The translations under genes were made by a program, and so were the position numbers. Below are positions 29,955-55,480 of a DNA stretch of 62,054 bases, piece after piece. The DNA is taken from the NCBI GenBank assembly GCA_021791145.1, contig JAJYXE010000042.1:1-62054 (forward strand), in the 5' to 3' direction. The DNA comes from Actinomycetes bacterium. Lineage in GTDB: Bacteria; Actinomycetota; Acidimicrobiia; Acidimicrobiales; RAAP-2. The notes below the pieces were generated by a model. The model had not been told where the DNA came from. It was given only the letters and a program-made list of their open reading frames with translations, and made no database searches. Position 1 is the first letter of the stretch. Every line of letters starts with the position of its first letter.

Positions 29955-29959
29955 TCACG
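29955..29959. repeat. Target-site duplication, left copy (TCACG)
   Basis: TCACG lies immediately outside the TGTGGAACCGCG left end and matches the five bases immediately outside the right end (51482-51486). Confidence 0.85.
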
Positions 29960-30004
29960 TGTGGAACCGCGTAGAAAGTCAGTGAGAAACCGCGTGCGGT
30001 GACA
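29960..30004. repeat. Left transposon end: two 22-bp transposase-site repeats
   Basis: L1 (29960-29981) begins TGTGGAACCGCGT and L2 (29983-30004) begins TGAGAAACCGCGT and ends GGTGACA. L2 matches the outermost right site at nearly every position. No further copy is evident in the next 200 bases. Confidence 0.82.
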
Positions 30005-30093
30005 TGCTCCCAATAGTTAGCACCCCTGGCTGGCTGAGGTAGCTGACCTTGGCCACCGGCATGCCGGCCGGGGTGGCCGCACAGTCGTCGCCT

Positions 30094-30252
30094 ATGACGG
30101 TTCCCGCCGGCTGGTACCAAGACCCACACGACCCTGCACGAGTGCGGTGGTGGGATGGGACCAAGTGGACGGAACACCAGCAGTCGCTGACCAGTCCGCC
30201 GTCTGCGATGACCCCGTCGCCGGCTCCAATCCCTTCACCGACGGCACCTTAA
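30094..30252 (+). CDS. Small DUF2510-domain protein
   Basis: 52 residues from ATG 30094. AGWYQDPHDPARVRWWDG followed by TKWTEH is the complete DUF2510 signature (paired Trp residues around a WYxDP core), common at the N-terminus of actinobacterial membrane proteins. Here it ends after a short Ser/Pro/Thr tail without a membrane helix, so it is either a minimal member or the 5' part of a gene truncated by a stop. It is the first gene inside the transposon. Confidence 0.6.
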   Translation: MTVPAGWYQDPHDPARVRWWDGTKWTEHQQSLTSPPSAMTPSPAPIPSPTAP

Positions 30253-30381
30253 GCGCCCGTCCCATCCCCACCGGATGCCCGAGCCCCAAGAGCTCGCCCG
30301 CCGGCGACTGCCAGTACCCTGTTGAACCCGCTGACAAAGTCGACCTGTCCCGAAGTCGCGCCCGGCTCGATGACCCGGCAA

Positions 30382-31314
30382 TCAGTCAGACGGCTGCGGC
30401 CCCTCGAGGCCGGCGGCCAGTGCCGGGCGCACCGACTTGGTGTCGGTGTAGGCGTCGAGCTCCCGGCGGGCCGTGGCGATGGCTGCCAAGAGTTCAGGGT
30501 CGCCGGTTGCCTGGGCGACCTGGGCTCGTGCTGCCTCGATCGGAGCCGTCTGCGCTTTAGCTGAGGCCAGCGCGTTCTCGGCTACGTGGATGCGCTGGGG
30601 CCGCTGCGCTTCACTGGCGGGAGCCTGGGCCGCGGCGGTGTTGATCGCTGCGGCAAAGGAGCGGATCCGGGCGCCCTGGTCCGGCGGGCACTTCACCACG
30701 CACGAGAGCCGGGGTGACTCGATGCGCAGATACAGCTCTCGGGTATCGATCTTCTTGGTCTTCTTGAACCCTGCTCCCCCGACCACCGCCCCCACCGGTC
30801 CGGCGACAAGAAAGCCGGCCCCGGTGCGCGTCAGGGTGGCCCGCTTAGTCACAGCCAGGTTGCCGGCGGTGTCGACGTGGGCTCGCACCCCGATGAGCGG
30901 CACCGTGCCCTGCGGGGTGGCGATGGTCCGTTCGTAGAGGGTGACGCCGCGGCAGCGCCGCAGCCGCTTGCCGTTGGGATCGCGAAGGGCCGCCAACTGG
31001 GCCTCGGCGTCGGCTACGGCCTTGGCGTAGGCGCTCTGGCGCCGGGTGAGCTCGGCCTGGGCCGCGGCGACGGCCGACCGGTGGGCCCGTTCGGCTTCGT
31101 GCAGCCGGTGGCGCAGGGTGTGCGACTGGCGGCCGCTCTTGGCCGCGTCGATCAGGAGCCCCCCGGTCGCAGCGACCAGCAGCCAGAGGATCCACAAGAC
31201 GGTGGCCGACCAGACGAGCTGGGCCATGAGCACCAGGGCGATGCCCCTGAAGTGCTCGAGGGACGACCGGGCCCAGCCCGTGGCCCGGGCGACGGCCTTC
31301 GAGTAGCGACCCAT
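30382..31314 (-). CDS. Unknown membrane protein with coiled-coil segments
   Basis: 310 residues from ATG 31314. Two adjacent hydrophobic segments (about 24-55, GIALVLMAQLVWSATVLWIL) are followed by an Ala/Arg/Glu-rich coiled coil (about 62-112), then a compact domain with RGVTLYERTIATPQGTVPLIG and a Gly-rich GAGFLVAGPVGAVVGGAG stretch, and a second helical region. The middle part resembles proteins that sense or process at the membrane, but I cannot assign a family. It is cargo near the left end of the transposon. Confidence 0.65.
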   Translation of the reverse strand: MGRYSKAVARATGWARSSLEHFRGIALVLMAQLVWSATVLWILWLLVAATGGLLIDAAKSGRQSHTLRHRLHEAERAHRSAVAAAQAELTRRQSAYAKAVADAEAQLAALRDPNGKRLRRCRGVTLYERTIATPQGTVPLIGVRAHVDTAGNLAVTKRATLTRTGAGFLVAGPVGAVVGGAGFKKTKKIDTRELYLRIESPRLSCVVKCPPDQGARIRSFAAAINTAAAQAPASEAQRPQRIHVAENALASAKAQTAPIEAARAQVAQATGDPELLAAIATARRELDAYTDTKSVRPALAAGLEGPQPSD

Positions 31315-31531
31315 GATGCCCCCTCTTCTTGCGCGCTGTTCGCAATGTTAGGAGCCGGGCGCGACGCCTGCCACGGGTGACTGGCCCGGTGGACGCGGGC
31401 GGAGGACGGATCGTGTGCTCAGAGGAGCAGCGGCCGCGCTCAACGGCCGTGCGTGGTGGTGGCGGAGTGTTCGAGAAGTAAGTCCCGCAACCGAGAGGTG
31501 CGTACGACAACGAACCGGCCAGCTACCCCGT

Positions 31532-32071: not shown

Positions 32072-32147
32072 GGGCACTACTTGTCAGCCGTCGTCCGCAG
32101 GTGGCAGTCGCCGAAACGGCGGTTTTGGGCGCATTCTCCGCGCGTGG

Positions 32148-32218
32148 TGCTGATTCCGATGAATCCGGACGCTCATTCCGACCGAATCCGGACAGCTGGT
32201 CCGATGGAATCCGGACAC
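32148..32218. repeat. IS21 left terminal repeat array
   Basis: Three consecutive copies of a motif of about 23 bp, TTCCGA-(2-3 nt)-AATCCGGAC, follow the left IS end; the third begins GTCCGATGG. Confidence 0.85.
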
Positions 32219-32255
32219 GGGGCGCCGGAGGCCGCGTAGCGGCCGACGTCGACGG

Positions 32256-33071
32256 TCAGCGGTCTCCCGACTTCACCTCCTCTTCGCTGTCGGTCTGTGA
32301 TTGGTTCTTCGTCTCCTCCGAGCGCGCCCGCCGGGTCTTCGGCGCTGAGGACTGTCGGCGAAGCGACTCTCCCTCGAGTGCGATCCGGTGGGCATGCTGC
32401 AGCAGGCGATCGAGTATGGCGTCCGCGATCGTCGCATCGCCGATCGACTCGTGCCAGTGGGCGACAGGCAGCTGGGACGCTGCGATCGTCGCTCGCAGCT
32501 GGTGGCGGTCCTCCACCACCTCGAGCAGGTCCGCCGCCTGCTGGATGTCACAGGGCCGGATGAACAGATCGTCGACGACGAGGACCTCGACACGAGCGAG
32601 AGACGCCATGAGCTTCGCCAGCCGTCCATCCGCGCGAGCGAGTGCCAGATCCTCGATCAGGCGCGGGGCTCGGACGTAGAGTGCTGGGTGCCCGTGGCGG
32701 ATCGCCGCGTTGGCGAGCGCGCAGGCGACGTAGGTCTTCCCCACGCCGGTCGGACCCGTGACGACGACGTTGTGATGCGCACCGACCCAGTGCGACTCGG
32801 CGAGGGACAGGACGAGGGATCGGTCGAGACCCCGATGCGCGCTGAAGTCGACGTTCTCGATGACCGCGTCGCAGCGCAGCTTGGCCGCCTGGAGGAGCCG
32901 GCGCAACCGGCGGTTCTTGCGCTCACAGAGCTCCTGGTCGACCAACAGGCCGAGTCGCTCTTCGAAGGCCAGTCCGTCGTAGAGCGTGCTCGTTCGCTGC
33001 TCCTCGAGGCTCCGGGCCATGACTGTGAGCTTCAACTCGCGCAGTCCCTCGATCGTGGGGCTCATCAACAT
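32256..33071 (-). CDS. istB: IS21 transposition helper ATPase IstB
   Basis: 271 residues from ATG 33071, chosen for GGGAG seven bases upstream; ATG 33086, overlapping the istA stop, is the alternative. AAA+ features are Walker A GPTGVGKT (106-113), Walker B VLVVDDLF and the IstB/DnaC-specific opening LRELKLTVMARSLEEQ. IstB binds DNA and stimulates the IstA transposase. A charged tail of about 30 residues extends past the usual end. Confidence 0.92.
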   Translation of the reverse strand: MLMSPTIEGLRELKLTVMARSLEEQRTSTLYDGLAFEERLGLLVDQELCERKNRRLRRLLQAAKLRCDAVIENVDFSAHRGLDRSLVLSLAESHWVGAHHNVVVTGPTGVGKTYVACALANAAIRHGHPALYVRAPRLIEDLALARADGRLAKLMASLARVEVLVVDDLFIRPCDIQQAADLLEVVEDRHQLRATIAASQLPVAHWHESIGDATIADAILDRLLQHAHRIALEGESLRRQSSAPKTRRARSEETKNQSQTDSEEEVKSGDR

Positions 33072-33082
33072 GGGTGCTCCCT

Positions 33083-34636
33083 TCATTGGTAGTAGTCGCC
33101 GCCACGCACGTTTCGGTGTTGACGGCGGTGCTGGGTCAGCTGGCTGGTGGTCTCGGTGGGAAGTGGCTGGCGGTCGAGGCCGTGCTCGAGAATCGACTTG
33201 ACCGAGGTGTAGGAGTAGGCGTTGAGGGCGCTCGCTCGCCGGCACGCCGCCTCGATGCGGCTGGGCTCGTAGTGCTTTGCGAGGCGGATCACACCGAGGA
33301 TCGAGCGGTAGCCGTGCTCTGGGTGGGGACGCAGCTCGATCAGCTTCTTGGCGAACTGGGCGGTCTCGGGCCCGGTCTTCTCCGCCCAGGCGATCATCCG
33401 AGACGGCGTCCACTCTTGGTGGCGGCGATGGGACTCGGGCATGTGCTGTGGTGTCGTGGTGAACCCGCCGACCTTGAAGGATCGTATGTGGGACGCCACT
33501 CGTCTTCCCTTGAAGAACACCTCGATGCTTGCTGCAGACGTGCGCACGTCGAGCCGCTTCCCCACGAGCTGGTGGGGAACCGAGTAGTAGTGGTGATCCA
33601 CGTCGACGTGGTAGTCGATATTGCAGGACACCTGCTTCCATCGGCCGATCACGTAGGGAGAGGCCGGCAGGGGCGTGAGGGCGGGGCGGTCGATCGCCTC
33701 GTAGAGGGTGCGGCGAGAACCCTCCAGCTTCTTGAACGGCTTGTCGTTGATCGCCTCCACCAGCCCGGCGATCCTGCGGTTCAACTGGCCGAGCGAGGTG
33801 AAGCGTTCGTTTCGGAGCTTGGCCAGGATCCATCGCTCGCAGAGGAGCACGGCCGCCTCCACCTTGGCTTTGTCACGTGGTCTGTAACTTCTCGCCGGGA
33901 TCACCGCCGCGCCATAGTGGGTAGCCATCTCCTCGTAGGTCCGGTTGAGCTCAGCCTCGTAGCGGTTGGGCTTCTTCACGCCGCTGCGCAAGTTGTCGTC
34001 AACGAGGATCTTGGCCGCACCATCCATGTACTCGAAGGTGTGCACGTTGGAAGTGACGAAGTCTGTGAGCCCCTGGGTCGCAGTCGCCTCCGCGTAGACG
34101 TAGGACGACGCGCCGAGGGCGGCGACGAACAGCTGGGCTGTGACGAGCACCTCGCCGGTCAGGTAGTCGTAGACGGGGATGGTCGGCCCGGCGTAGTCGA
34201 TGAAGAGCTTCTCTGTGGCACGGTGCTCCTGGCGCATCACGACGCCGAGGGTCTTGGTCCACTCCCGATACAGGTTGCAGAACTGGCTGTAGGCGTAGCC
34301 GTCGGGATGGGCCTCTCGGTATTCCTCCCACAAGAGCCACTTGGTCACACCGGTCCTTGCGAGCTCGGTGCGCACGTAGTTCCAGTCCGGCACGGCACGC
34401 GTTGTCGTCGGCGGCGCCACAGAGGGGAACAGGCGGTGCTCGAGGGCAGCTGTGTCGAGCTCGGCGGGCAGCGGCCAGCTGAGCCCGGCGGCCTTCGCGC
34501 GCTTCACGTGGTCGGCGACCGTGGAGGCCGCCAGGTGGAGCGCGTCGGCCACCTGCCGGCGGGTGAGGCCCATCGCGAACGTGAGCCGGAGAACGTCTCG
34601 GATCTTTCGCATGTCGCTGCGGGGACGTGGTGACAC
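33083..34636 (-). CDS. istA: IS21 transposase IstA
   Basis: 517 residues from GTG 34636, with GAGGAGG eight bases upstream. An N-terminal helix-turn-helix (about 10-48, GLTRRQVADALHLAASTVADH) is followed by a DDE integrase core: the Asp in LFIDYAG (147), the Asp in LVDDN (213-214) and the Glu in DKAKVEAAV (260). A Mu-transposase-like C-terminal beta domain follows. The complete length and intact acids suggest an active copy. The stop overlaps the alternative istB start (ATGA). Confidence 0.93.
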   Translation of the reverse strand: MSPRPRSDMRKIRDVLRLTFAMGLTRRQVADALHLAASTVADHVKRAKAAGLSWPLPAELDTAALEHRLFPSVAPPTTTRAVPDWNYVRTELARTGVTKWLLWEEYREAHPDGYAYSQFCNLYREWTKTLGVVMRQEHRATEKLFIDYAGPTIPVYDYLTGEVLVTAQLFVAALGASSYVYAEATATQGLTDFVTSNVHTFEYMDGAAKILVDDNLRSGVKKPNRYEAELNRTYEEMATHYGAAVIPARSYRPRDKAKVEAAVLLCERWILAKLRNERFTSLGQLNRRIAGLVEAINDKPFKKLEGSRRTLYEAIDRPALTPLPASPYVIGRWKQVSCNIDYHVDVDHHYYSVPHQLVGKRLDVRTSAASIEVFFKGRRVASHIRSFKVGGFTTTPQHMPESHRRHQEWTPSRMIAWAEKTGPETAQFAKKLIELRPHPEHGYRSILGVIRLAKHYEPSRIEAACRRASALNAYSYTSVKSILEHGLDRQPLPTETTSQLTQHRRQHRNVRGGDYYQ

Positions 34637-34731
34637 CGCTGCCTCCTCTCGTCGCCCCCCACGGCGGGGGGAACGAGATGAAGGTGCTGCGTCGGCTCAG
34701 CTCAGCGGTGGATCCTCCGGGTCAGGCCTGG

Positions 34732-34796
34732 CGCGTCCGGATTCGTCGGAACGCTGTCCGGATTGGATCGGAACGCTGTCCGGATTCCATCGGAAG
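34732..34796. repeat. IS21 right subterminal repeat array
   Basis: Three consecutive copies of GTCCGGATT-(2-3 nt)-TCGGAA, the inverse of the left-end motif, lie between the istA start and the MITE-like insertion; two further copies lie beyond it (34940-34979). Confidence 0.82.
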
Positions 34797-34938
34797 GGCT
34801 CGCGAGATAACTACGCGGACACAAGATGTAGTGGTTGGATGGGTGGTAGGTTCACCAGGAGAAATGGACATCTCTGCAGGTCACCGCATCGGCACTGCGA
34901 CAGAAGATGTTGGGGCCGCGTAGACAGCTCGCGAGCCC
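34796..34938. mobile_element. 143-bp MITE-like palindromic element inside the IS21 terminal repeat array
   Basis: The ends are GGGCTCGCGAG...CTACGCGG in inverted orientation, about 19 of 23 positions matching, with no coding capacity. It is flanked by the 11-bp direct repeat TTCCATCGGAA (34785-34795 and 34940-34950). The flanks could be a target duplication or two members of the surrounding IS21 repeat array. The interior (about 97 bp) is AT-richer than its surroundings. Confidence 0.6.
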
Positions 34939-35072
34939 TTTCCATCGGAACAGCTGTCCGGATTGGGTCGGAATTCACACGTGGTAGGGAAAGACCGCTC
35001 GACGCGCGGACATGGGACCCCTTGCCGGCGCCCCCGGACGGGCACCGGGCGGCTGGGTCGGTCACTCAGCGA

Positions 35073-35918
35073 TCACGAGCAGCCGGGTACTGCCTCGTCG
35101 CTTGGCGGACCCGGTCTCTCCGGCATCTGGCGGAGCCAGGCGCGCGGCGGGCGGAGAACCTCGAGGCTCTCGCTGATTCCTCGCAGGCGCGCCCCGGTGT
35201 CATTCGTGAGGAAGACGACCCGCGCACCGGTCATGTGCTGCACCTCATGGGCGACGTCGAGGATCTCCTCGTCGGCGTCGTCTGGCCGGTAGCGAGGGCG
35301 CTCAGCAAGGAGGATCTCAAGGGTGGCTGTATCGCGAATGGCCACCGGCCCCTTGTCGCCTTGCGGAAAATGCGCCTCGATCCACGGCAACAGGTCCCGC
35401 GCTGCCCGGGCAAGGCGCCCCGAGTCGCTGTACTTCTTCATGTCGAGCTCCTCGATCACCCGCAGCGGCAGGAGCAGCCTGGCGTTGTCACCGAGAACCG
35501 GCTTCCAGGCGATGCTGTCGGGGCGCTGGCAGTGCAACAGGATGTTGGAATCCGGAAGTACCGGCACACCGGGTGCCCTTCGCATGCGGTCCCGCGTGGC
35601 CTTGAGCTGGTCGGCAAGCTCTCGGAAGGTGTCAGCCTTGGCGTTGACTTCGGCGTTGACCAGTGCGAGGAGCTGGGTACCCGCCGGCATCGAGCAGACG
35701 TCGCGGTGCTGCGGATTGGAGAAGAGGGCGGCCGCGTCCTCGGGCCGGAGGAAGCTGTGGAGTTCCTGCTCGGTCCTCGTTGCCCAGAGCACGTACTGGT
35801 CGCGCACCTTTGTCGCCGGGGTGCCAGCCGGGATGGCGTTGTACGTGTTCCACCCGAGCGCTGTGAGGCGCTGGGCGGCCTCGTCCACGTCGGCGCCGGG
35901 CCGCAAGCGCAGCTTCAC
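35073..35918 (-). CDS. PIN-domain protein, last gene of the type I restriction operon
   Basis: 281 residues from GTG 35918 (overlapping the upstream stop as GTGA, with GGAG upstream). The N-terminal 110 residues are unassigned. A PIN nuclease fold then follows with the expected acids: D123 in LPDSNILLH, E156/E157 in RVIEELD, D213-E217 in DDADEEILD and N239/D240 in FLTNDTGAR. PIN domains are metal-dependent RNases, often toxins or RNA-processing enzymes. Its position after hsdM-S-R and two other genes suggests a role as effector or guard of the restriction system. Confidence 0.78.
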   Translation of the reverse strand: MKLRLRPGADVDEAAQRLTALGWNTYNAIPAGTPATKVRDQYVLWATRTEQELHSFLRPEDAAALFSNPQHRDVCSMPAGTQLLALVNAEVNAKADTFRELADQLKATRDRMRRAPGVPVLPDSNILLHCQRPDSIAWKPVLGDNARLLLPLRVIEELDMKKYSDSGRLARAARDLLPWIEAHFPQGDKGPVAIRDTATLEILLAERPRYRPDDADEEILDVAHEVQHMTGARVVFLTNDTGARLRGISESLEVLRPPRAWLRQMPERPGPPSDEAVPGCS

Positions 35919-36484
35919 CGCGCACTCCGCGTCATGGCTTGAGGAAGACTTCCACCGAGTGGCGCGAATTCGCCGGCGCTCGTGACGATCTCGGCATAAT
36001 TGCGCTGGGTGAGCCCCAGACAAACGTCGAGATCACGATGGCGCCTGGCCAGCCGAGCGTTCACTGCCGCGATGGTGTCCGCCGAGAACACGAGCAGCGC
36101 CCGGGCATCGAGAGCCTCGTAGACGACCAGTGCGAAGCGTTCGCAGCCGCCCCGGAAGTCGATGAGAGGCTCGTTCACCCAAGCACCAGCAGGATTCGCC
36201 ACATAGCGCACCTGCACCGTGCGGCCCTGCGGGTCGCAGAAGTCCCAGCCCTTCTGCACTCGGTTGGTCGCAAGGGTGCCGCCGAGCTGGGCGTGGGCGA
36301 TCCGCTCGGCGAACTCGGCGAGCGGGTCGCGGTTGGACCCGTCGGTCCCAATCGCGGTCAGCAGGGCGCGACGCGCAGCGCGGTACTGGCGAAGGGCAGC
36401 GAGCAGGCGTTCGGCCTCAACGACAGGCCCCTCGGTTGGCCCAGGCGACTCGCCGTCTACCGCGTCTCGATCTGTCACAGTCAT
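35915..36484 (-). CDS. Restriction-associated protein, DUF6998/PDDEXK-like
   Basis: 189 residues from ATG 36484, which overlaps the preceding stop (ATGA). The block AQLGGTLATNRVQKGWDFCD followed by GRTVQVRYV has the layout of a PD-(D/E)xK nuclease core (the Asp of WDFCD, and Q-V-R where E-x-K is usual), as in DUF6998 proteins found beside restriction genes. The catalytic Lys is not obvious (R in QVRY), so it may be inactive or I may have misread the fold. Confidence 0.55.
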   Translation of the reverse strand: MTVTDRDAVDGESPGPTEGPVVEAERLLAALRQYRAARRALLTAIGTDGSNRDPLAEFAERIAHAQLGGTLATNRVQKGWDFCDPQGRTVQVRYVANPAGAWVNEPLIDFRGGCERFALVVYEALDARALLVFSADTIAAVNARLARRHRDLDVCLGLTQRNYAEIVTSAGEFAPLGGSLPQAMTRSAR

Positions 36485-37281: not shown

Positions 37282-37287
37282 GACTTG

Positions 37288-40200
37288 CTACTCGGTCGTG
37301 TTCGGCTCTGGGGGCTCGGCGCGCAGCTCTCGGTAGGTCTCACGCATCAGCTCGCGTTCCACCACTGCGGCGAGATCCGGCTTCGACAGCAACAGCTCGT
37401 ACAGGCGCCGGTTGCGCTCCTCCTGGTCGAGGACCGCACCCTTGAACACCGTCCCGAACTCGAGCGCGTAGTTGTCCTCGGTGTTGGCGTTCGCGAACGC
37501 CTTCAGATCCTCTCGGTCGAGGAGGCCCACCTTGATCTTCTCGAACTCCAGGCGGTCTGAGTCATCGAGGTCGGCGCCGAAGCGCTCGTTGATGACTTCG
37601 ATCACCGTTGCCAGGCTTTCAAGTTCCTCGGGCAGCGGTCCGCCCGAGTGGCCCTGACCCGGGAACGGCTTCCCGGCTTCGATGTCGTCGGCAGTGAGCT
37701 CGAGTGTGGCTCGACCAGCCTCCTCCAGCCGCAGATGGGTGAGGACCAGATCACTCCCGAGCTCGAGAGCGCCGGACACCTGGTTCGGAAGACAGGCAAC
37801 GAGTGCCTTGGCGTAGACATAGAGCCGTTCAAGCTCCGCGTCGGTCCAAGGCATCACCTGAGACAGGAACGAGTACGCCCGGATGAAGCGGTCGAGGGCG
37901 TCGCGTAGCTCCGCCTGCGCATCGTCATCGAGTGCGTTGAAGCGCTCGACCGCCGGATCGACGTTGGCGTAGATGACCTTCAGGCTGCGCTTGGCCGGAT
38001 CAACGCCAAAGAAAGCGTCCGATGCCGCGACGATCTCGGCGTCGTCCAGGATGCCGACGGTCAGGATGCGGTTGCGAAGGTCGTAGAGGACGTTCGGGTC
38101 CGTGGGTTCGGTGATGACGGCCTCGTAGTAGCGCTGGAAGGCCTTCTGCACCTCCTCGGCCGAGTTGCGGAAGTCGAGGACGAAGGTGGCGTCCTTGCCC
38201 GGGGCCTTCCGGTTCAGGCGAGACAGCGTCTGCACGGCGTTGAGCCCGCGCAGCTGCTTGTCCACGAACATGGTGTGCAGGTACGGCTCGTCGAATCCCG
38301 TGAGGAACTTCTCTGCCACGACGAGTACCTGGTAGTCTTCTGGCGAAAACGGCGGGTTGGGCACGCCTTGGAAACGCCCGGCGGTCTGAGACTCGGGAAA
38401 CTCGTTCATCTTCGACTCGGTCTGCTCTGTGCCGAGGTCGTCGACCACCGTCCCCGAAAACGCCACCAGCGCGTGCACATCGGTGATGTGGTTGTCGGTG
38501 ATGTGCTTGTCGATGGCCTGCTTGTAGCGCACCGCGGCAGGCCGGGACTCGGTGACGACCATGGCCTTCGCTCGGCCACCGAGTGCTTTCGCCGTGTGCG
38601 CCCGGAAGTGCTCGACGATGATGGCCGCCTTCTGTGAGATGAGGGTCGGGTTCTTCGAGATGTAACGCCAGATGGCCGAAGCAGCCTTGCGGACATCTAC
38701 CTCCTCGGCGGCCGCGTCCTCAGAGGCTGCGTTCAGGCGGAAGTAGAGGTTATAGGTCGTGTAGTTCTCAAGGACGTCGAGGACGAACCCCTCCTCGATG
38801 GCCTGACGCATCGTGTAGAGGTGGAACGGCCCCTTCACGCCACCCTCGCCGAGGGTACCGAACAGCTCGACGGTGCGGTCCTTGGGCGTCGCGGTGAAGG
38901 CGTAGTAGTTGAGGTTGGGCTGGCGGCCCCGTGCCGCCACCACTGCAGCAAGGGCGGTCTCCGAGTCGATCTCTTCGTCGGCGAGCTCTGCTGTCGGGTG
39001 TCCGGCGCCCAGGGCCTGCTTCAAGGCGTTGGCCGCGTCCCCGGTCTGGGAGGAGTGTGCCTCGTCGACGATGATGGCGTAGTTCGCCTTCGAGACGTCC
39101 GCTTCGCCCAGCTTTGTGATCACGAACGGGAACGTCTCCAACGTGACGGTCACGATGTGGGCACCACCGGTGAGGGCTTCGGCGAGCTCTTGGGACTTGG
39201 GGCCGGACTTCCCCTCGACAGAGACGATGGTCCCCCGCACGCTCTCGAACTGCTGCACCGTCGCCCGCAGTTGCGTGTCGAGGACCCGGCGGTCGGTGAC
39301 CACGATGACCTTGTCGAACATCTTGGTGTCGTTGTCGTCGTGGAGCACCGACAGGCGGTGGGCCAGCCACGCGATCGAGTTGGACTTGCCAGAACCCGCC
39401 GAATGCTCAACCAGAAACGCGTGGCCGGGACCTGTGGCCCTGCTCGCCTCGACGAGACGGGTCACCGCGTCCCACTGGTGGAACCGGGGGAAGATGACCG
39501 AGCGAGGCTTTCCCTTACCGGCGTGGAACGACTCGACGAACGATCCTAGGATGCCGAGCCAGGGGTGGTAGGCCCAGATCTGCTCCCACAGGTACGAGGT
39601 GGCGTAGCCATCGGGGTTGGGTGGGTTCCCCTCCCCGCAGGAGAGCTTGCCGGGGTCACTGCCGCGGTTGAACGGCATGAACTCGGTCGCCTTCCCCGCC
39701 AATGCCGTCGTCATGTACACGAGGTGGGGGTCCACAGCGAAGTGGACGAAAGCGCGTCGAGCAAAGAGGAGCTCCCTCGGATCCCGGTTTGTCTGGTACT
39801 GGATGATGGCATCGGTCACATCCTGGCCGTTGAGCGGGTTCTTCAGCTCGGCGGTGGCGACCGGGAGGCCGTTTACGAAGAGACAGAGGTCGATGCTGTT
39901 GGCGTTGTCGGTCGAGTAGTGGAGTTGGCGGGTGACCGTGAGGCGGTTTCTCTCGTACAGATCAGCCAGCGTCGGGTTGAGCCCAGAGGCTGGCTTAAAC
40001 TGGCAGAGCGAGAGCCGGATCCCCTTGTCTGTCACGCCATGGCGGAGCACGTCGACGGTCCCTCGTTCGTCGATCGAAGAGGCAAGGCGGGAGACGAAAC
40101 CCTGCTGTGCGGTATCGGCTTCGCCCCCATAACGGGTGATGAGCTGGTTCCAGCGCGCGCCCTGGGTGTGACCGAGATAGGCGAACAGTTCGGCCGTGTC

Positions 40201-41579: not shown

Positions 41580-41581
41580 CG

Positions 41582-43885: not shown

Positions 43886-44410
43886 GTGAAATGCATAGAA
43901 GTGGGCATCGACCGGGCAGCAGTGGAGGTGGATGCCTCTACCCCCAACCCGAAGAACGAGGACCTCTACCCGCGGCTCCTCGACGAAGTGGTCGCTCGGC
44001 TGCTGAGCGAGCGGATGGAGCCCACGGCCGCTTTGGCCGTTGCGGGTCACGTGGTCCGCGGCACCCCGTGGGCGAGCTACCGAACGGGTCGGATCCGGCT
44101 TGCTTCGGCCGCCGCCAGTTACCTGACGTGGCTGGTACCGCCTGCGAACTGGACTCCCGGAACGGCCCCCGCCATCGCAGGACGCCAGCCAGTTGCCTGG
44201 TGCTCGCCCGCCGGCGAGACGATCGTCGACTTGCTGGGCGGTGGCCGCACCTACGTGAAGCAGCTGGCACACCCTCTGGCGAGGCTCGGCCACTTCGCCG
44301 CTGTCCGCGCTATCGACCTCGTGGCACCGACCAAGAGCGTCGCTTACCCCTCCGGCGCGCACTCGCTCCCTCTCGTGGAGTCCGAGTGGTGGTTCGGGGG
44401 TGCACGATGA
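43886..44410 (+). CDS. Unknown first protein of the transposition operon
   Basis: 174 residues from GTG 43886 (start uncertain; no ATG is available in the coding part). The N-terminus KCIEVGIDRAAVEVDAS is followed by a helical region with PRLLDEVVARLLSE, then strands and GGRTYVKQLAHPLARLGHFA. It shows no TnsA-like endonuclease motif that I can see. It overlaps the transposase gene by ATGA, so equal production with the transposase is likely. I do not recognise the family; an accessory or target-selection role is inferred only from position. Confidence 0.65.
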   Translation: MKCIEVGIDRAAVEVDASTPNPKNEDLYPRLLDEVVARLLSERMEPTAALAVAGHVVRGTPWASYRTGRIRLASAAASYLTWLVPPANWTPGTAPAIAGRQPVAWCSPAGETIVDLLGGGRTYVKQLAHPLARLGHFAAVRAIDLVAPTKSVAYPSGAHSLPLVESEWWFGGAR

Positions 44411-45966
44411 CGATCACCCCGATCAACGCCGCCGCGACCGCTTTCCTGGCCGGCAGCGACACCGCAGACAAGCTCGTCATGGGAGCACCCAACGAGGTGC
44501 TCGGTCGACTTCTCCGCATCCAAGCCAAGACTGGAGCGGTTCCGCGTGCCGACTACGAGGAGGCGTCTCGGACCCTCGGGATCAGTGTGCGCCAGATCCA
44601 GCGTCACCTCGCAGGGCTCCGCGAAGGACGGCGCCCACCAGGCCGTCAGCCGTTCGTGCTCACCACTCATCACGAACAGGTCATTTTGGCGTGCAACGGC
44701 AACGTGGCACTGGCCTACCGAGAGCTCAAGAAGGCGGGGGAAGATCTGCCTGGCGAGGACACCTTCTGGAGGGCTTGGTACTGCCAGCCGATGGCAAAGC
44801 AGGACTACGCCCGCCACGGAGCCAAGGGACTCGTGGAGTTCCTGCTCTACCCGCCATGGGAGGCACCCGAGCGCAACTCGGTGTGGCAAGCCGACCACTT
44901 CGAGCTTCCGATCGACGTGATCGCAGACGGGTGTACCACCCAGACGGTGAAGCCGTGGCTGACTGTGTTCGAGGACGACCGCTCCCGACTGGTGTTGGCG
45001 GCGACGCTCACCGCCACCGCTGGACGCCGGCCCGACGCCGACATCGTCTGCGCGACCCTCGTCGCCGGCATTCGTACGCGGATGGAAGGTGGCGTCGAGG
45101 TCGGCGGGGTTCCTCGCATTGTCCGCTGGGACAACGCCGCCGAGTTCAACGCCGGCATGGTGATCGATCTCGGCGTCCGGGTGGGTTTCGAGTGCCACGC
45201 CGTACCTCCGTACTCGGGCCACATGAAAGGAAAGGTCGAGCGCTTCGGACGCCGCGTGCAAGAGCAGTTCTGCGTCCTGCAGCCAGGCTTCACCCACGGT
45301 CCGAAGACCCACACGACGAAGGACCCGTTCCGGGACACGACTCCGCTCACTGCAGCCGAGCTTCGCCCACGCCTGGGCCTTTGGATCGCCGAGTACAACT
45401 CGACGCACCATCAAGGAATCGGTGAGACGCCGCTCGAGCGGTGGGCGTCGGACCAAACGCCGCTGCGCCGGGCGAGCCCGACACAACTGCGCTCGGCCCT
45501 CCTCGTCGCCCCGCGCGCCTACAAGGTCGAAAAGCGCCGGGGCATCTGGTTCCGTGGCGGCTACTGGCAGTCGGGGAGCCTGATGGACCTCGTCGGAAGG
45601 ACGGTGGAAGTGCACTACCCCGTGGGCACAGACATCGACTTCATCGAGGTCTACAAGGAGGGCAAGTGGCAGTGCACCGCCTGGCCGGCGGCAAAGCTGA
45701 CCGACAGCCAGCGCCGGGAGATCTTCGACGGGCGACGCGACCTCTACACCGAGGTCCGAGAGCTGCACGAGCAAGCCAAGCGGATCCGCACAGGCGCCGA
45801 TGCCCAGATGGGCGACACCGACGCGACGCCGGCAATCGCCTCGATGCCAGCGGTCGACCCATTAGCTCCCAACACAGGCGACCTCTACGACTTGTTGCGC
45901 CGAGCAGCTGCGTCACCCGACGACATCACGGACGAGGACCATCGCGACGCGGAGGAGGGATCGTGA
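44407..45966 (+). CDS. DDE transposase, TnsB/TniA/MuA-like
   Basis: 519 residues from ATG 44407. An N-terminal helix-turn-helix (ASRTLGISVRQIQRHLAGL, about 53-71) precedes an RNase-H integrase core: D163 in WQADHFELPID, D242 in RWDNAAEF and E278 in KGKVERFG, the DD(35)E spacing of the retroviral/Mu/Tn7 group. A Mu-type C-terminal beta-barrel (RGIWFRGGYWQSGSLMDLVG) follows, then an acidic tail that could contact the ATPase. It would bind the 22-bp end repeats and carry out strand transfer with 5-bp staggering. Overlaps on both sides are four bases. Confidence 0.9.
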   Translation: MTITPINAAATAFLAGSDTADKLVMGAPNEVLGRLLRIQAKTGAVPRADYEEASRTLGISVRQIQRHLAGLREGRRPPGRQPFVLTTHHEQVILACNGNVALAYRELKKAGEDLPGEDTFWRAWYCQPMAKQDYARHGAKGLVEFLLYPPWEAPERNSVWQADHFELPIDVIADGCTTQTVKPWLTVFEDDRSRLVLAATLTATAGRRPDADIVCATLVAGIRTRMEGGVEVGGVPRIVRWDNAAEFNAGMVIDLGVRVGFECHAVPPYSGHMKGKVERFGRRVQEQFCVLQPGFTHGPKTHTTKDPFRDTTPLTAAELRPRLGLWIAEYNSTHHQGIGETPLERWASDQTPLRRASPTQLRSALLVAPRAYKVEKRRGIWFRGGYWQSGSLMDLVGRTVEVHYPVGTDIDFIEVYKEGKWQCTAWPAAKLTDSQRREIFDGRRDLYTEVRELHEQAKRIRTGADAQMGDTDATPAIASMPAVDPLAPNTGDLYDLLRRAAASPDDITDEDHRDAEEGS

Positions 45967-46721
45967 GCACGCAGACTGACACCCTCAACGATGCTCTCTC
46001 CCTCGTCGAGCAGCCGGCGAGCACCGTGCACACGAAATCGTTCGTACTCGCCCAGACCATCGCCAACCAGGCGCTCGCCCAGAGAGCGATCGCAGGCTTC
46101 TTCGGCGACCCCGGAACCGGCAAGACCCATGCTATGCGGTACTTCTGCGACCACTGCCCCACAGAGGCGATCTACATAACGGCTTCCGCCTCTCCGCAGG
46201 CCAAGGAGATCTACGAGGAGATCCTCTTGCTCACCCGCGGCGAGGTGCCCAAGGGCACCGCCCGGGAGCTCCGTCGCCAGTGTGCCGAGGTCTTGGGCGA
46301 GCGCCGCAGGGTGGTGGTGGTCGACGAGTGCCAGAACCTGAGCTACCTGTGGCATCAGCAGCTCCGGAGTCTGCACGACTTCCCCGACGCGCAGTTTGCG
46401 CTGCTCTTGTCGGGAGGTGTGAACGCTGAGCGCACGCTGAAGCGCGACGCGCAGCTGTGGAGCCGGGTCAAGATGCGCATGCACTTCCAGGAACTGCGGG
46501 ACACAGAGCTCATCGAGACGTTGGCACTCCTTCACCCGGTGCTCGCACTGACGGACCCGGCGCTCCTGGTCGAGATCGACCGCAAGCACTGCCGCGGCAA
46601 CCTTCGGGACTGGGTCTCGTTTCTCGAGCTGGCCCTGCCCCTGCTGCCAGGGAGCCGAAGGAAGGATCGGTTGACGTCGCAGATCGTGCGAGCAGTCTTC
46701 ATGCTGCGTGGTGTGACATGA
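45963..46721 (+). CDS. AAA+ transposition ATPase, TnsC/TniB/MuB-like
   Basis: 252 residues from GTG 45963 (GTGA overlap). Walker A is GDPGTGKT (48-55), Walker B RVVVVDECQNL (about 116-126) and the sensor-1 region FALLLSGG; LWSRVKMRMHF carries the arginine segment. This size and order match TniB/MuB-type regulators that select target DNA and activate the transposase. It is smaller than Tn7 TnsC (about 555 residues), closer to the Tn5053 and Mu proteins. It is coupled to the downstream gene by ATGA. Confidence 0.88.
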   Translation: MSTQTDTLNDALSLVEQPASTVHTKSFVLAQTIANQALAQRAIAGFFGDPGTGKTHAMRYFCDHCPTEAIYITASASPQAKEIYEEILLLTRGEVPKGTARELRRQCAEVLGERRRVVVVDECQNLSYLWHQQLRSLHDFPDAQFALLLSGGVNAERTLKRDAQLWSRVKMRMHFQELRDTELIETLALLHPVLALTDPALLVEIDRKHCRGNLRDWVSFLELALPLLPGSRRKDRLTSQIVRAVFMLRGVT

Positions 46722-47965
46722 ACCGGGCCCACATCCGCACGGCGACCCTCCACCACACAACTGAGGCCGTTCGGAGGCTCCGTAGCGCGACGAACCCCGA
46801 CGCCGGGCTCCTGGTGGCCGCAGTCCCGCCAGACCTTCGACGGAGCTACGCCCTCACGTGGGAGCTCTTGGCAGGTCTCGGCAAGCAGTCAGGAGTCTCG
46901 GGCGCTGCCAAGCGCGAAGATCTGAACTGGGAGGTGCTCGCCGCCTGGATCTTCTCCCATGGTGTCCGACATCTCGTCGTTGTGGACGCCCAATGGATCG
47001 GGGCTCGGGTCCTTCCCGAGTTGGTCGGCATGGCCGCCGCCACCGGCGTGACGCTCTGGTTGGTCGCCCACCACCCAATCACAGACGACTACTTCTGCGC
47101 ACTCGGCGACTGGCCGACGACCCCTGCGACACCCACTGAGCTCGCCAACATCGTGGAGGCAGCCATTGCGCAGCGCTCGGCGAACGCGGACGAGTACGAC
47201 GAGGACGTCTTCCCCTCACTTCCCGCTGATCCGTTCGTGACCTTCCGCGCCGAAGCACGCCAGCGACTCCCCGAGGACGTCTTCGGCCGCCTTGATGCTC
47301 GCTACCGCTCAGCACATGCGGCCGGTCGCGACTGGTTCGCTGGCCGGGAACCCGGCGAGGTCGATGCTGAAGGGCTGGTGCGGCACCTTCGAGGCCGGCT
47401 TCAACGCTGCGCAAGCGCCGAAGCGATGTTGATCGAGGTGCGGGCGCTACAGGCGGCCGCGTACTCGGCTGACTGGTCGCTCTCCGTCGACCTTCCCCGC
47501 TTCAAGGCCATGGCCGAAAACGTGTCAGCTGCGGCCGTCGAGTCACCTGAGACCTGGCGTCGTCTCCGGGCCTACCGAGAGCCCTACCGGGGAGCCGCTT
47601 GCGCCCTCGTCGCCCGGGAACTTGCCGTCGACACAATGCTGGCACTGCGCATCGACGACGTCAGCGGCGACGGGCGATCGGTCAGTGTCGAGCGCAACGG
47701 CGTCCGGGAGGAGTTCTCGGTACCTCCGGGCGCAGAGCTCTACCTGCGAGCGCAGGTGTGGCACCGGCGCCTCCAGGGCGCGGTCGGGACAGAGCTGCTG
47801 TTTGCGACCGAGGAAGGCCCGATGACGGACCGCTACTTGAGCTCGGCGATCCGTGCGCCAGCGTCCGAAGTGGCCGTTCCCCTCTACTCCCAGCAGGTAG
47901 AGCGCGGCGAGGTAACCGCCAAGCGCTGGGTACGGCGGTGGGGACTGGCGGTGCAGGCACTGTGA
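46718..47965 (+). CDS. Unknown transposition-operon protein with degenerate ATPase-like and tyrosine-recombinase-like parts
   Basis: 415 residues from ATG 46718. The N-terminal half has a Walker-B-like strand HLVVVDAQWIG and a following LWLVAHHPI resembling a second AAA+ core, but no P-loop is visible. The C-terminal third (about 295-415) reads like the catalytic-domain fold of tyrosine recombinases (GAACALVARELAVDTMLAL then RIDDVSGDGRSVSVERNG, ELLFATEEGPMTDRYLS) without the R-H-R-Y tetrad. It may be a DNA-binding target selector that replaces TniQ. All functional statements are inference. Confidence 0.6.
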   Translation: MNRAHIRTATLHHTTEAVRRLRSATNPDAGLLVAAVPPDLRRSYALTWELLAGLGKQSGVSGAAKREDLNWEVLAAWIFSHGVRHLVVVDAQWIGARVLPELVGMAAATGVTLWLVAHHPITDDYFCALGDWPTTPATPTELANIVEAAIAQRSANADEYDEDVFPSLPADPFVTFRAEARQRLPEDVFGRLDARYRSAHAAGRDWFAGREPGEVDAEGLVRHLRGRLQRCASAEAMLIEVRALQAAAYSADWSLSVDLPRFKAMAENVSAAAVESPETWRRLRAYREPYRGAACALVARELAVDTMLALRIDDVSGDGRSVSVERNGVREEFSVPPGAELYLRAQVWHRRLQGAVGTELLFATEEGPMTDRYLSSAIRAPASEVAVPLYSQQVERGEVTAKRWVRRWGLAVQAL

Positions 47966-48678
47966 GCTCCAACACTCCCCGCCTCAACCCCGTACTGCTG
48001 CGCCGGCGGCGTGCAGAGCTGGGACTCACCGCGAAGGCGCTGGCCGATGCGCTCGGCATCCTTCCGGCCACCTACATGTTCCTGGAAAACACGGGTGGGA
48101 AGACGCTCGACCTGCGTCTAGTCGTCCGTCTCGCCCGCATCCTGGGCGTCTCGCTGGACTCGCTGGTGACGCCGGCCGTCCTCGACGAGGCCCCGGACGT
48201 CCCGACGGTCGACGACGACGCGAAGGCTCTCGGTTCCCTCCTCTACTCCGCGGAGACGCTGATCCCGATCGGTGCGCTCTGCGACGCCCTTGACTGGCCG
48301 CTGGACCGTCTCCATGCGGCCGAGGAGAGGCTCGGGGCGCAGCTCGAGGCCTGCGGGCTCCGGCTACGCCGCTCCAACGCTCGGCTCGCCATCACCCGTG
48401 ATCCTGACCCGGTAGACACGACGTCGCTCAAGACCGCGATCCGTCGCCACCTCGGTCGGCACAACGTGGGCCGTCGCGAGCTACGCCTGCTCCGCCGCAT
48501 CGAACAGGAGCGCGTGCCCAAAGCCACCTCCAACCCAGACATCGTCGCTCTCGGGGTCCTGGTGAACGCCGAGCTGGTCACGTTCCAGACAAGCGGAGCT
48601 CCACGCAGCGAGACGCCGATGACCTTGAGCGAGGACGTGCGCTTCAGCCTGATGCTCGACAAGGAGCCAGAAACATGA
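47962..48678 (+). CDS. XRE-type helix-turn-helix protein ending the transposition operon
   Basis: 238 residues from GTG 47962 (GTGA overlap). Residues 8-70 form a Cro/CI-type HTH (RAELGLTAKALADALGI then LPATYMFLENTGGK). Two further winged-helix-like segments follow (LIPIGALCDALDWPLDRLHAAEERL, and HNVGRRELRLLRRIEQE then LGVLVNAELVTF). Three DNA-binding-like units suggest recognition of an extended site: either the operon operator or the attachment site. Confidence 0.68.
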   Translation: MSSNTPRLNPVLLRRRRAELGLTAKALADALGILPATYMFLENTGGKTLDLRLVVRLARILGVSLDSLVTPAVLDEAPDVPTVDDDAKALGSLLYSAETLIPIGALCDALDWPLDRLHAAEERLGAQLEACGLRLRRSNARLAITRDPDPVDTTSLKTAIRRHLGRHNVGRRELRLLRRIEQERVPKATSNPDIVALGVLVNAELVTFQTSGAPRSETPMTLSEDVRFSLMLDKEPET

Positions 48679-48773: not shown

Positions 48774-50840
48774 TCAGAGTCCAAGCGACCTTCGCTCGTG
48801 CTCCTCGAACCTCTTCTCCAGGTGTCGCCTCCCGCGGGATGCAAACTCCCACAGGCTGCTGTTCACGAGACTCTGCCTGGTGTTGAGAACCGCCGCCACC
48901 AGAACGAAGAACGTCGCCAGGCCTCCGCCGATCAGACCAGCCCCCGCGACAGCCCCTCCGATGATGACCATGGCAAGAATCACGTAGATGACTTTCGCGA
49001 TGCGCAAGGCTTTGCGATGCGCCTTGTTGCTGATTCGCCGAGCGAGTTCATCCTTGTGCGCCTGCTCGCTGCTCTGCAGGGCTTTCTCGTGCGCCCCGCG
49101 CTCAGCGCTCAGCATCGTCTCTGCAAGCTCCGCGCGCCGGGATTCCTCGTCCGCGCGAACCTCCGCCTCCCGGCGTCTCAAGGCCTCCGTCTGGACCCGC
49201 TCCTGCGCCTCTCGGGTCATGGTCTCTCGGGCGCGCCGCAAAATGTCGGCAACCGAGCCGACGACGAGCGCATCCTCGTGGCCAAGCGTCTCTTCCATGA
49301 GCGCGCGACGTGCGCTAACCGTGTAGCGGAGCGTGGCGTAGTCCTCCTCGGAGACTCCGCCATCCGCCCGCGCTTGATCCACCACCTCGAGGAAGCGCTC
49401 CCAAAGCAGGTTGCCAGGCTCAAGCGCTGCGATGCAGTCGGCCACGAGTTGCCGCTTCGGCAGGTCCGGTGCCGCCATCGGCCTCTTCAACCAGGCGACG
49501 GTTCCAAGTTCGGAGGCGAGCGTCGCTACAGGAACTTGGGACCCATTGGGCGTCTCTTCGAAGAACTGGATGCTGGCCCGCACGAGCCTCGCGTTCGACG
49601 TGACGAAGATCGCTCGGGCCGACTCCAGATGACGTTGGCTTCTTCCTTCTCGCAGGCGCCAGATCGCGGTGAGCGACCTTACGTCGTACAAACGCGTCTC
49701 GGGTCGTACGTACCCGACGACGTTTTGCAGCACCTCCTCCAAGCGCCTCTCGTCCAAGCTCAGCCTGACGCGATAGTCGGGCGCATCCCCTACCGAGATT
49801 CCGAGAGCTTGCAAGTCTTTTTCGACTTGCGCGGCCTTCAACTCGAGCTGAGTTCGCCCCCATCCGCGGCTTGCGGCGTAGGAGACAACCTCGTTTACGG
49901 TGTGGCCATCGGCGACGGTGGTCGCCAGCGCCGGAGCTGAGGCATGCAGCAGGTTCTCCGTCTCCTGGAGCGTGTGCGAGAAGCACCTCACCCGCGCACC
50001 AAGGTCTTGAAGAAGCTTCACCAATTCACACGCCGCGTCACGCCGCGCATCGTCAGTCAACCCCAGGATGTCGATGAGAACGGGCGTGTCGACATAGACC
50101 GTCAAGTCAGTGACCGCTCGGGCTCGATCGTTAGGATCGGGCAAATACAAGGCGGTGGCCAGCATGCAGCCTCGAACGATCATGTCCAGCAGGTTGAAGC
50201 CCTCGACGTCGGTACGGGAGAGGTGCACGATGAAGTCGGCGACCAGCAGTTCCAGGTCGCCGAGGTTCGCTAGGTGCGGTTGATACCCCTCTCCGAGCAA
50301 CGTCGCTCGGACGATCGGGATGGCTCGGTCGGTCACGTAGGTAAGGAATGCGTCGTCTACTTGGTCTTCTGTGAACTGCCGGCCATGCTTTGCTTTGGCG
50401 AAGTCGACGAACTTTTGCAGTAGCTGTGCATACGCGCGTTGCGCTCGCTGCTGAGCAGGTTCAAGGTTCGTACCCACCAGCGCCTCCTCGTCCGGAACGA
50501 GCATGTGATTCTCCAGGCGAAACAGGCCCTGTCGAACGCCTCGCTTGATCACCGTGTTGAGCGCGTACTGGGGAAGAGCCAGTCCGAAGCGCGATTGCAG
50601 TTGATTCTGGACCTCCTGCGTGGCAATCGCTCGGGCGCCAAACGTCTTCACGCAGTGAGCTACGAACGGAACAAAGTTGTCGATGTACGAGCTGTTCTGG
50701 TTATCCCAGCGAACCTGGAGCATGGCAAAACTGACGAGAAGTGCCCTGCCCCGTTCCTCGGCCTTCGGTTGCTCCGATGCCCCGGCACCCGAGTCCGCCT
50801 GCTCCAAGGGTGCACCATTGTGGGCTGGCGACGACGTCAT
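48774..50840 (-). CDS. PIN-domain, coiled-coil, membrane-anchored protein of unknown function
   Basis: 688 residues from ATG 50840. The order is: a winged-helix-like N-terminal region (about 50-120, VQNQLQSRFGLALPQYALNTVIKRG), a helical domain, a PIN nuclease fold (about 248-425: D251 in VYVDTPVLIDIL, E293, D386, N416 in FVTSNARLV), a long Arg/Glu coiled coil (about 540-615) and two membrane helices near the C-terminus (about 628-665). A predicted RNase tethered to the membrane beside transposition genes suggests abortive-infection-type defence or element maintenance; this is inference. Confidence 0.72.
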   Translation of the reverse strand: MTSSPAHNGAPLEQADSGAGASEQPKAEERGRALLVSFAMLQVRWDNQNSSYIDNFVPFVAHCVKTFGARAIATQEVQNQLQSRFGLALPQYALNTVIKRGVRQGLFRLENHMLVPDEEALVGTNLEPAQQRAQRAYAQLLQKFVDFAKAKHGRQFTEDQVDDAFLTYVTDRAIPIVRATLLGEGYQPHLANLGDLELLVADFIVHLSRTDVEGFNLLDMIVRGCMLATALYLPDPNDRARAVTDLTVYVDTPVLIDILGLTDDARRDAACELVKLLQDLGARVRCFSHTLQETENLLHASAPALATTVADGHTVNEVVSYAASRGWGRTQLELKAAQVEKDLQALGISVGDAPDYRVRLSLDERRLEEVLQNVVGYVRPETRLYDVRSLTAIWRLREGRSQRHLESARAIFVTSNARLVRASIQFFEETPNGSQVPVATLASELGTVAWLKRPMAAPDLPKRQLVADCIAALEPGNLLWERFLEVVDQARADGGVSEEDYATLRYTVSARRALMEETLGHEDALVVGSVADILRRARETMTREAQERVQTEALRRREAEVRADEESRRAELAETMLSAERGAHEKALQSSEQAHKDELARRISNKAHRKALRIAKVIYVILAMVIIGGAVAGAGLIGGGLATFFVLVAAVLNTRQSLVNSSLWEFASRGRRHLEKRFEEHERRSLGL

Positions 50841-50926
50841 CTCTTCCAGCCCTCAGCGGTGAACAAGCCGGCAAGCACCTTCGCAAGTCGAGCTCGATCG
50901 CGCGGGTCCATCTGCAGCACCAATCC

Positions 50927-51310
50927 CTACCGCCCGATGCTGAGACGGGGGACGAACACCTGTGCCGACCTCCCAAAGAGCTCTTCGGGCCTGTAGGTGC
51001 GGCGCTGCTCATCGAGGAACCAGCACCAGGTGATGATGTCGTTCTCCTGGGCCGGCACGTAGCCGGCGACCTTCCTACCGAGGTTCCCGCGCGGGACTCC
51101 AAGGCGTGCGGCGACGTCTGGGATCGAGAGACCGAGCTCTTTGCTGCGGTAGTACATGAGGAACGCCAGCTCGTGCTGCTCCCGGGCACGAGCGAGTCGG
51201 ACTGCGCCCGCAAGGTCGGCGGCGTAGATCCACACCGGATCTTCCTGCTCGCCGAAGAAGCCTGGGACCCGGAGGAGCTCCCGAGGGACGAACGCCGGCG
51301 TGCCGGACAC
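50927..51310 (-). CDS. Small helix-turn-helix protein next to the right transposon end
   Basis: 127 residues from GTG 51310 (AGGGG upstream); a TTG at 51337 would add nine residues. A helical N-terminus with FGEQEDPVWIYAADLAGAVRL precedes a clear HTH (KELGLSIPDVAARLGVPRGNLGRKV, quoted here as KELGLSIPDVAARLGV plus PRGNLGRKV), then WCWFLDEQRRTYRPEELFG. It is transcribed away from the end and toward the PIN gene 86 bases downstream, so it may regulate that gene. Alternatively it may bind the end repeats. Confidence 0.62.
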   Translation of the reverse strand: MSGTPAFVPRELLRVPGFFGEQEDPVWIYAADLAGAVRLARAREQHELAFLMYYRSKELGLSIPDVAARLGVPRGNLGRKVAGYVPAQENDIITWCWFLDEQRRTYRPEELFGRSAQVFVPRLSIGR

Positions 51311-51392
51311 CGCTACCCCTAAAAGCCGCCTGCGCAAGCCACCGGGCCCGGGGGTTGCCCGGGCCTGGTGCTTGCAAAAGTGAGCACGCCGA

Positions 51393-51481
51393 TGTCATCG
51401 CACGCGGAAACGCGTGTCACTTGACGCGGAAACGCGTGACACTTGCCGCGGAAAGCCGACGTCACCGGACGCGGTTTCTCA
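51393..51481. repeat. Right transposon end: four abutting 22-bp transposase-site repeats
   Basis: Read inward on the minus strand the sites are R1 51460-51481 (TGAGAAACCGCGTCC...), R2 51437-51458, R3 51415-51436 and R4 51393-51414. R2-R4 share TTTCCGCG and end in GTGTCA, GTGACA and ATGACA; R1 shares CCGCGT and GTGAC. R3 and R4 also contain the palindrome ACGCG-GAAA-CGCGT. Confidence 0.85.

Positions 51482-55480
<3,999 letters not shown>

Follow-up and report, generated by a model that had tools for sequence, protein, structure and literature searches.

A Tn7-like transposon at the nrdJ stop codon of an actinomycete, and its putative TniQ-less target selector

Introduction

A 62,054-nucleotide contig of an Actinomycetes bacterium (JAJYXE010000042.1; the whole stretch is hereafter "the window") raises the question of how a transposon comes to end exactly at the stop codon of a conserved chromosomal gene when the protein that usually guides such elements was not found among its genes. 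The element occupies positions 29960-51481 (21,522 bp, read directly from the window sequence) and adjoins nrdJ. We are fairly confident that it is a Tn7-like transposon that probably reached this site by way of a TniQ-less selector, a 415-amino-acid (aa) protein encoded by the third gene of its operon. An earlier note on this DNA had described a complete, self-bounded transposon of the Tn7/Tn5053/Mu type. That reading holds: the element is real and complete, and its ends, repeats, DD(35)E transposase and target duplication lie where the note had placed them.

Tn7 combines a DDE transposase with an AAA+ ATPase, has several end sites of ~22 bp, makes a 5-bp duplication and carries a large cargo. 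With TnsABC and TnsD it homes to attTn7 at the 3′ end of glmS, leaving this housekeeping gene unbroken. In glmS, the site bound by TnsD is at the end of the coding region (PMC2918618), and a TniQ/TnsD target protein is reported to be near-universal in Tn7-like elements (PMC11406308).

The element ends at the stop codon of nrdJ

The right junction sits at the nrdJ stop, position 51482 being the final base of that codon on the minus strand. Unstranded copies of TCACG flank the element at 29955-29959 and 51482-51486, and the right copy consists of the final five coding bases of nrdJ, stop codon included. Since it is the final bases of nrdJ itself that are duplicated, nrdJ retains its stop codon and the gene is intact. 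This attachment gene (51482-55624, minus strand) encodes a class II ribonucleotide reductase with Pfam matches to Ribonuc_red_lgC, the class II N-terminal domain and LAGLIDADG_3, and an intein splicing match below threshold. The intein is of the LAGLIDADG type and in frame; in the related genome G916 the nrdJ frame is longer (1764 aa).

The left end, TGTGGAACCGCG, begins at 29960, and the right end, TGAGAAACCGCG, is read inward from 51481. The TG...CA ends with 10 of 12 matching bases and the TCACG duplication on which the earlier note relied are present as described, but alone they are not rare. A scan around the operon for TG/CA pairs with a 5-bp duplication found five in the window with 10/12 end matches, the element's own among them, and in Markov sequences put through the same scan the best score was 10 or 11 in 27 of 30. 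As this is no better than chance in an open pair scan, we rejected ends and duplication as stand-alone proof of the element, and the internal repeats carry the weight.

These 22-bp repeats comprise L1 (29960-29981) and L2 (29983-30004) on the plus strand at the left, and R4 (51389-51410), R3 (51411-51432), R2 (51433-51454) and R1 (51460-51481) on the minus strand at the right. In a leave-one-out weight-matrix test, five of the six sites were unequalled among 124,059 other window positions. Of the two left and four right repeats proposed by the earlier note, only the terminal site L1 is weak (228 of the 124,059 positions score equally high). L1 has TGTGGAAC in common with the left end of a relative on Pseudonocardia plasmids, and L2 gives an inverted match to the right end of the element. 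R1, which stops at the nrdJ stop codon, is seen by direct reading, as part of a direct repeat and with the weight matrix. Related genomes back the ends independently: right ends of this type lie at the identical nrdJ nucleotide in other genomes, the Pseudonocardia relative starts with TGTGGAACGACG, and in G639 a complete element is bounded by a duplication of its own.

The left TCACG copy belongs to a longer perfect direct repeat of 32 bp (29928-29959 and 51455-51486), so that a 27-bp unstranded copy of the right terminus (29928-29954) stands outside the left end. This outer copy is probably a relic, left by an element that had inserted at this site before. In the simplest history, an older element was reduced to its right-terminal 27 bp and the present element then entered between this relic and nrdJ. 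Genome G436 has, in order, the nrdJ stop, CGTGA (TCACG read on the other strand), a right-end relic similar to that of the window, and a homologue of window 17503-18534 (88% protein identity); the search returned no transposase match in it. It may resemble the state before the present insertion. The empty site with a single TCACG that the earlier note anticipated was found in part, in that G436 has CGTGA at its nrdJ stop and no transposase match, but a relic follows, and no clean empty site was found in the same species.

Directly left of the relic, window 27343-29915 encodes a heavy-metal P-type ATPase and a small csoR-like protein (the latter recognized by eye), which could be chromosomal or cargo of a lost older element. 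Short tandem repeats lie outside the element at window 27000, 9819 and 6089, with periods of 24, 18 and 25.

Five lineages share the insertion nucleotide

Besides the window's own proteins, a protein search returned 41 transposase homologues and 22 homologues of the 415-aa protein. Two loci came up when genome contigs were scanned, one close (L003 in G001, Acidimicrobiaceae) and one distant (L004, 26% identity); viral contigs held no relative. With the transposase profile, one of 395 genomes of the class and one of 172 of the family matched, in both cases G001. Within the order, the profile of the 415-aa protein matched 7 of 397 genomes; within the phylum, it matched 9 of 396. Both sets include G001, and five of the nine phylum matches (G964, G974, G976, G944 and G1142) were partial only.

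Six of the 14 inspected selector loci end exactly after the nrdJ stop: those of the window, G001, G639, G799, G1014 and G916. They represent five lineages and share the same nucleotide. In G916 and G1014, the alignment of the neighboring gene with window nrdJ spans most of its length; in G639 and G799 it spans the C-terminal end, which is what remains on the contig. The other eight (G388, G692, G705 twice, G602, G854 and two Pseudonocardia plasmids) are not at nrdJ as far as the fetched stretches (5-32 kb) show, and the plasmid copies among them are near mobF. Hence nrdJ is a recurrent target of the wider family and not its sole one.

The selector gene lies after tnsC and before a helix-turn-helix gene in G001 and six further loci; in G705b the contig ends within tnsB, and in G602 the tnsB frame is broken. 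In G1014 and G854, tnsB and tnsC precede the selector. G916 has part of the selector only and no transposase match, and neither tnsB nor tnsC was found there as a separate gene. One of its frames (9109-10332 on the reverse complement of L145) is hit by the TnsC profile (E 2e-10) and also resembles the selector's second half; it may be a remnant, a fusion or a product of decay.

The G639 element is complete. It is 22,398 bp long and flanked by two copies of CGTAG, its ends agree at 12 of 12 and 21 of 24 bases, and its cargo includes a DISARM-type gene (DrmD). G799 shares the same open reading frames (ORFs). The G639 ends were found by an nrdJ-anchored search; a blind end scan had missed them because the piece scanned, L121, did not reach the left end. 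Blind scans of G388, L121-L124, L001 and L002 gave no outstanding pair, and the left ends of the G001, G1014 and G916 elements were searched for and not found.

The Pseudonocardia plasmids pLS2-2 (L001) and pLS1-1 (L002) carry the same 10.9-kb transposon (99.1% identical) upstream of mobF. Comparison of the plasmids gave its ends, TGTGGAACGACG on the left and TGTGGAGCGTCG on the right, with a 6-bp duplication in one plasmid and none in the other. Its operon has no helix-turn-helix gene, the right end following directly after the selector, and is accompanied by a recombinase-family (resolvase-type) gene. In pLS2-2 the selector gene is annotated as two pieces.

In a selector tree of 16 rows (G916 as a partial row, G639 and G799 entered once), the nrdJ-linked rows need two changes, and 18 of 500 shuffles were as low. 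The tree does not establish the nrdJ-linked selectors as one clade.

The operon and its putative selector

Four genes, each overlapping the next by four bases, form the operon: a transposase, an AAA+ ATPase, the 415-aa protein and a helix-turn-helix protein. The tnsB-like transposase (44407-45966, plus strand, 519 aa) was identified by profile matches, alignment and a tree. Its residues D163, D242 and E278 are invariant in 32 aligned sequences, as expected for DD(35)E. The nearest solved TnsB by profile is that of ShCAST (E 4e-23); Tn7 TnsB (E 5e-6) is only a distant relative in both profile and tree. The transposase phylogeny proposed by the earlier note, built without G602 because its transposase frame is broken, groups the window with its close relatives, and this grouping was used; IS21, Mu, Tn7 and Tn402 lie on long branches, which make the deep placement unsafe.

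The tnsC/tniB-like AAA+ ATPase (45963-46721, plus strand, 252 aa) has an intact P-loop (GDPGTGKT) and matches TniB (E 2.6e-6) and type V-K TnsC (E 1.5e-11), the latter being its best PADLOC match. The element thus carries its own transposase and ATPase, as the earlier note had said, and that note's remark that the genes beside the transposase are not recognizable Tn7 genes also holds: neither TniQ nor TnsD turned up, and the product of the third gene matches nothing in Pfam or NCBIfam. None of the 17 scanned element ORFs encodes a TniQ or a resolvase. The TniQ family PF06527 is absent from seven of eight related genomes, the eighth (G602) having one on another contig, and from all 14 named control genomes.

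The third gene (46718-47965, plus strand) encodes the 415-aa protein, which we examined with an AlphaFold2 (AF2) model, fold searches and profile alignment. The model has a pLDDT (predicted local distance difference test) of 83.3. In the predicted structure, residues 1-140 adopt a TnsC/MuB-type AAA fold that has no P-loop (matches over 2-140), and residues 265-396, also by profile alignment, a tyrosine-recombinase-like fold. The first catalytic arginine of the latter domain is missing in 23 of 24 selector sequences. The prediction is thus of an AAA domain of the TnsC/MuB type that lacks a P-loop, combined with a tyrosine-recombinase fold devoid of catalytic residues. In sequence searches, the selector profile had no match among Protein Data Bank (PDB) sequences up to E 10, profile comparison of TnsC with the selector was weak, and in a Pfam scan of 17 selectors one member matched AAA_22 (E 0.0017) while the others gave nothing consistent. 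Two proteins in which the 415-aa protein is fused to the helix-turn-helix protein (P0015 and P0017) were not used, since by eye both look like frameshift read-through.

The 415-aa protein is likely the target selector. The main competitor for this role is the product of the fourth gene (47962-48678, plus strand, 238 aa), which has an N-terminal helix-turn-helix (HTH_3, E 8.8e-8). It is possible, though unlikely, that this protein reads nrdJ, alone or with the 415-aa protein, which would then be a scaffold or a regulator of TnsC. The fourth gene product does have a recognizable DNA-binding domain, and so do its counterparts in seven other operons (one below Pfam's cut-off), in a scan that left out G1014, G916 and G854. 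However, the Pseudonocardia relatives lack this gene altogether, helix-turn-helix domains are also common in self-regulators, and the G799 element is at nrdJ with a fourth gene product of only 144 aa.

In the tnsA position, a conserved gene (43880-44410, plus strand, start codon not fixed) encodes ~180 aa and overlaps the start of the transposase gene. Foldseek with a model of this protein gave no match at E 0.001 or better. In a wider fold search, PD-(D/E)XK-like chains scored in the middle range, interspersed with unrelated ones; the likeness is weak, with no canonical catalytic motif recognized.

Solo ends and other arrays after nrdJ stops

In the family of G001, 154 of 172 genomes have an nrdJ match. 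We fetched 70 nrdJ 3′ ends (the 30 best matches and 40 chosen further down), of which 69 were located and 67 had enough downstream sequence. Ends of the window type follow the nrdJ stop in seven of the 67 (L014, L016, L017, L019, L025, L027 and L032) and none of 282 control stops. In five and eight of the 67, the stop is followed by arrays of two other kinds (controls 0/282 and 1/282; L017 is counted twice). The end patterns were written after viewing the sequences, so the test is descriptive. Element genes adjoin the window-type end in G001 (L032) and G392 (L027); near the other five none was found within reach (~100 bases in L017, 3-20 kb in the rest).

The second kind (TTGCA...TTCAGTG, with repeats of ~20 bp) stands right after the stop in L075, L086, L093, L099 and L102, and by eye also in L083, L096 and L098. 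It resembles the right end of the G1014 element, and such arrays may have been left by members of the window element's wider family. The third kind has TGTC then CC, 9-22 bases past the stop, in L012, L017, L031, L034, L037, L085, L091 and L095.

These arrays bear on a second explanation, that targeting is host-driven: a structure at the nrdJ 3′ end, a terminator or a host protein would attract several kinds of transposon, and the selector would not be sequence-specific. The two other end-like arrays (5/67 and 8/67) speak for it, as does the result for seven second-kind arrays read further (five found by pattern and two by eye), beside which profiles of the nrdJ-transposon family brought up no related gene within the 2.9-20 kb inspected. 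We nevertheless regard it as distinctly improbable, because the same nucleotide in five lineages argues for sequence reading, the other arrays resemble by eye the ends of family members (G1014 and G639) and may be family relics, and two members of the family whose selectors are divergent sit at a different gene, mobF. That the window holds a low-specificity IS21- or Tn5053-like element inserting near gene ends, with its location at nrdJ an ascertainment effect, has the Tn5053-type TniB match of the AAA+ protein and the Pseudonocardia relative (beside mobF, with a resolvase-type recombinase gene) in its favor, but it is very hard to credit when the selector loci were found by a protein search blind to nrdJ, four further lineages end at its stop, and neither TniQ nor resolvase was found in the window element's 17 scanned ORFs.

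Comparison with known systems

The window element resembles Tn7 in its TnsB-type DD(35)E transposase and TnsC-type AAA+ ATPase within an operon, in having several ~22-bp end sites and a 5-bp duplication (also in G639), in homing to a conserved chromosomal gene at the 3′ end without breaking it, and in its large cargo. It differs in having no TniQ/TnsD match, in inserting at the stop codon itself, in using nrdJ as attachment gene, in its distant TnsB and in an uncertain TnsA equivalent. It thus works like Tn7, but as TniQ was not found it is set apart from Tn7 members.

Tn5053/Tn402 elements (TniABQR) make a 5-bp duplication and have end repeats of ~20 bp. The window element shares the TniA/TniB-type core, the duplication and end repeats, and its Pseudonocardia relative has a resolvase-type gene; it differs in its target and in showing neither TniQ nor resolvase. 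Type V-K systems include the closest solved TnsB by profile (ShCAST) and the best PADLOC match of TnsC, yet no TniQ was found here; Pfam and PADLOC scans turned up no Cas12k and no CRISPR array, although no search was aimed at either. Mu (MuAB) belongs to the same transposase superfamily, and the selector N-terminus has a predicted MuB/TnsC fold; Mu, in contrast, is a phage, and by eye we recognized no phage structural genes in the ORF list, no phage-family scan having been run. IS21 is of the same superfamily too and, like Mu, lies on a very long branch of the transposase tree, but it consists of istA-istB alone whereas the window element has a four-gene operon and cargo. According to PMC10293859, no selector has been reported for IS21.

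According to the same paper, TnsF of Tn6022 is an inactivated tyrosine recombinase with N-terminal zinc fingers that selects comM via TniQ (PMC10293859). The putative selector here is likened to it by fold, through the inactivated tyrosine-recombinase domain, and not by direct homology. It differs in that TnsF has zinc fingers and a TniQ, whereas for the N-terminus of the 415-aa protein a TnsC/MuB-like AAA fold is predicted, and no TniQ turned up here. Neither nrdJ nor "ribonucleotide" nor "XRE" is mentioned in the main text of PMC10293859, and in PMC11406308 "nrd" nowhere begins a word. We found no earlier account of an nrdJ-homing family in the literature covered, which excludes subscription journals, so a prior description is possible.

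Cargo

Immediately upstream of the operon lies a type I restriction system on the minus strand, identified by family and defense-model matches: HsdR (37288-40314), HsdS (40314-41579) and the methyltransferase HsdM (41582-43765, ORF limits, the true start likely further in). Type I restriction systems occupy this position in G001 and G388 also. By eye, G001 (L007 4870-8804) has an RNA-repair-like Pnkp/Hen1 pair and other defense-like genes left of its restriction genes; they may be cargo of that element, whose left end was not found. Near the right end, a 688-aa protein (48774-50840, minus strand) with no significant Pfam match and a 136-aa protein (50927-51337, minus strand) have homologues that adjoin the right end in G001 and G392. 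A PIN-domain protein (35073-36023, minus strand; PF13638, E 2.1e-12) is also part of the cargo.

A nested IS21-family insertion on the minus strand (32150-34975, outer limits approximate) encodes IstB (32256-33116; IstB_IS21, E 4.7e-67) and IstA (33083-34636; IS21 transposase, E 3.4e-72) and has inverted end repeats. Three end-like repeat blocks were seen, one of which (34940-34974) lies past the expected end.

A model for homing without TniQ

The best reading is a family of TniQ-less homing transposons, often but not only at nrdJ. In the model that we favor, the tyrosine-recombinase-like domain would read the nrdJ 3′ end, while the AAA-like domain would dock on or cap the TnsC filament, a role like that of TniQ in Tn7-like elements. 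TnsC would then recruit TnsB bound to the end repeats, and TnsB would join the ends across the nrdJ stop codon. Older copies would decay to solo right ends, such as the one left of the window element, and cargo would be delivered to a conserved site in each new host. The nearest precedent is TnsF; by this analogy, the part that faces TnsC would here be a TnsC-like domain in the place of TniQ. Going further, we lean toward a distinct TniQ-free class of actinobacterial homing elements, in which a dead TnsC-like AAA domain and a dead tyrosine recombinase form a one-piece adaptor and other selectors lead to other sites. One half of the adaptor would read the nrdJ 3′ end and the other would seat or cap the TnsC filament, so that defense islands would be brought to the nrdJ stop codon repeatedly.

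TniQ is regarded as a near-universal hub that links target recognition to TnsC. Precise homing without it, if true, would reveal a second mechanism that links a DNA reader with a TnsC-type ATPase, contained in one protein. In that case nrdJ would join the known attachment genes, the arrival of restriction and DISARM-type islands at one fixed actinobacterial site would be explained, and a compact four-gene system would be available for direct tests.

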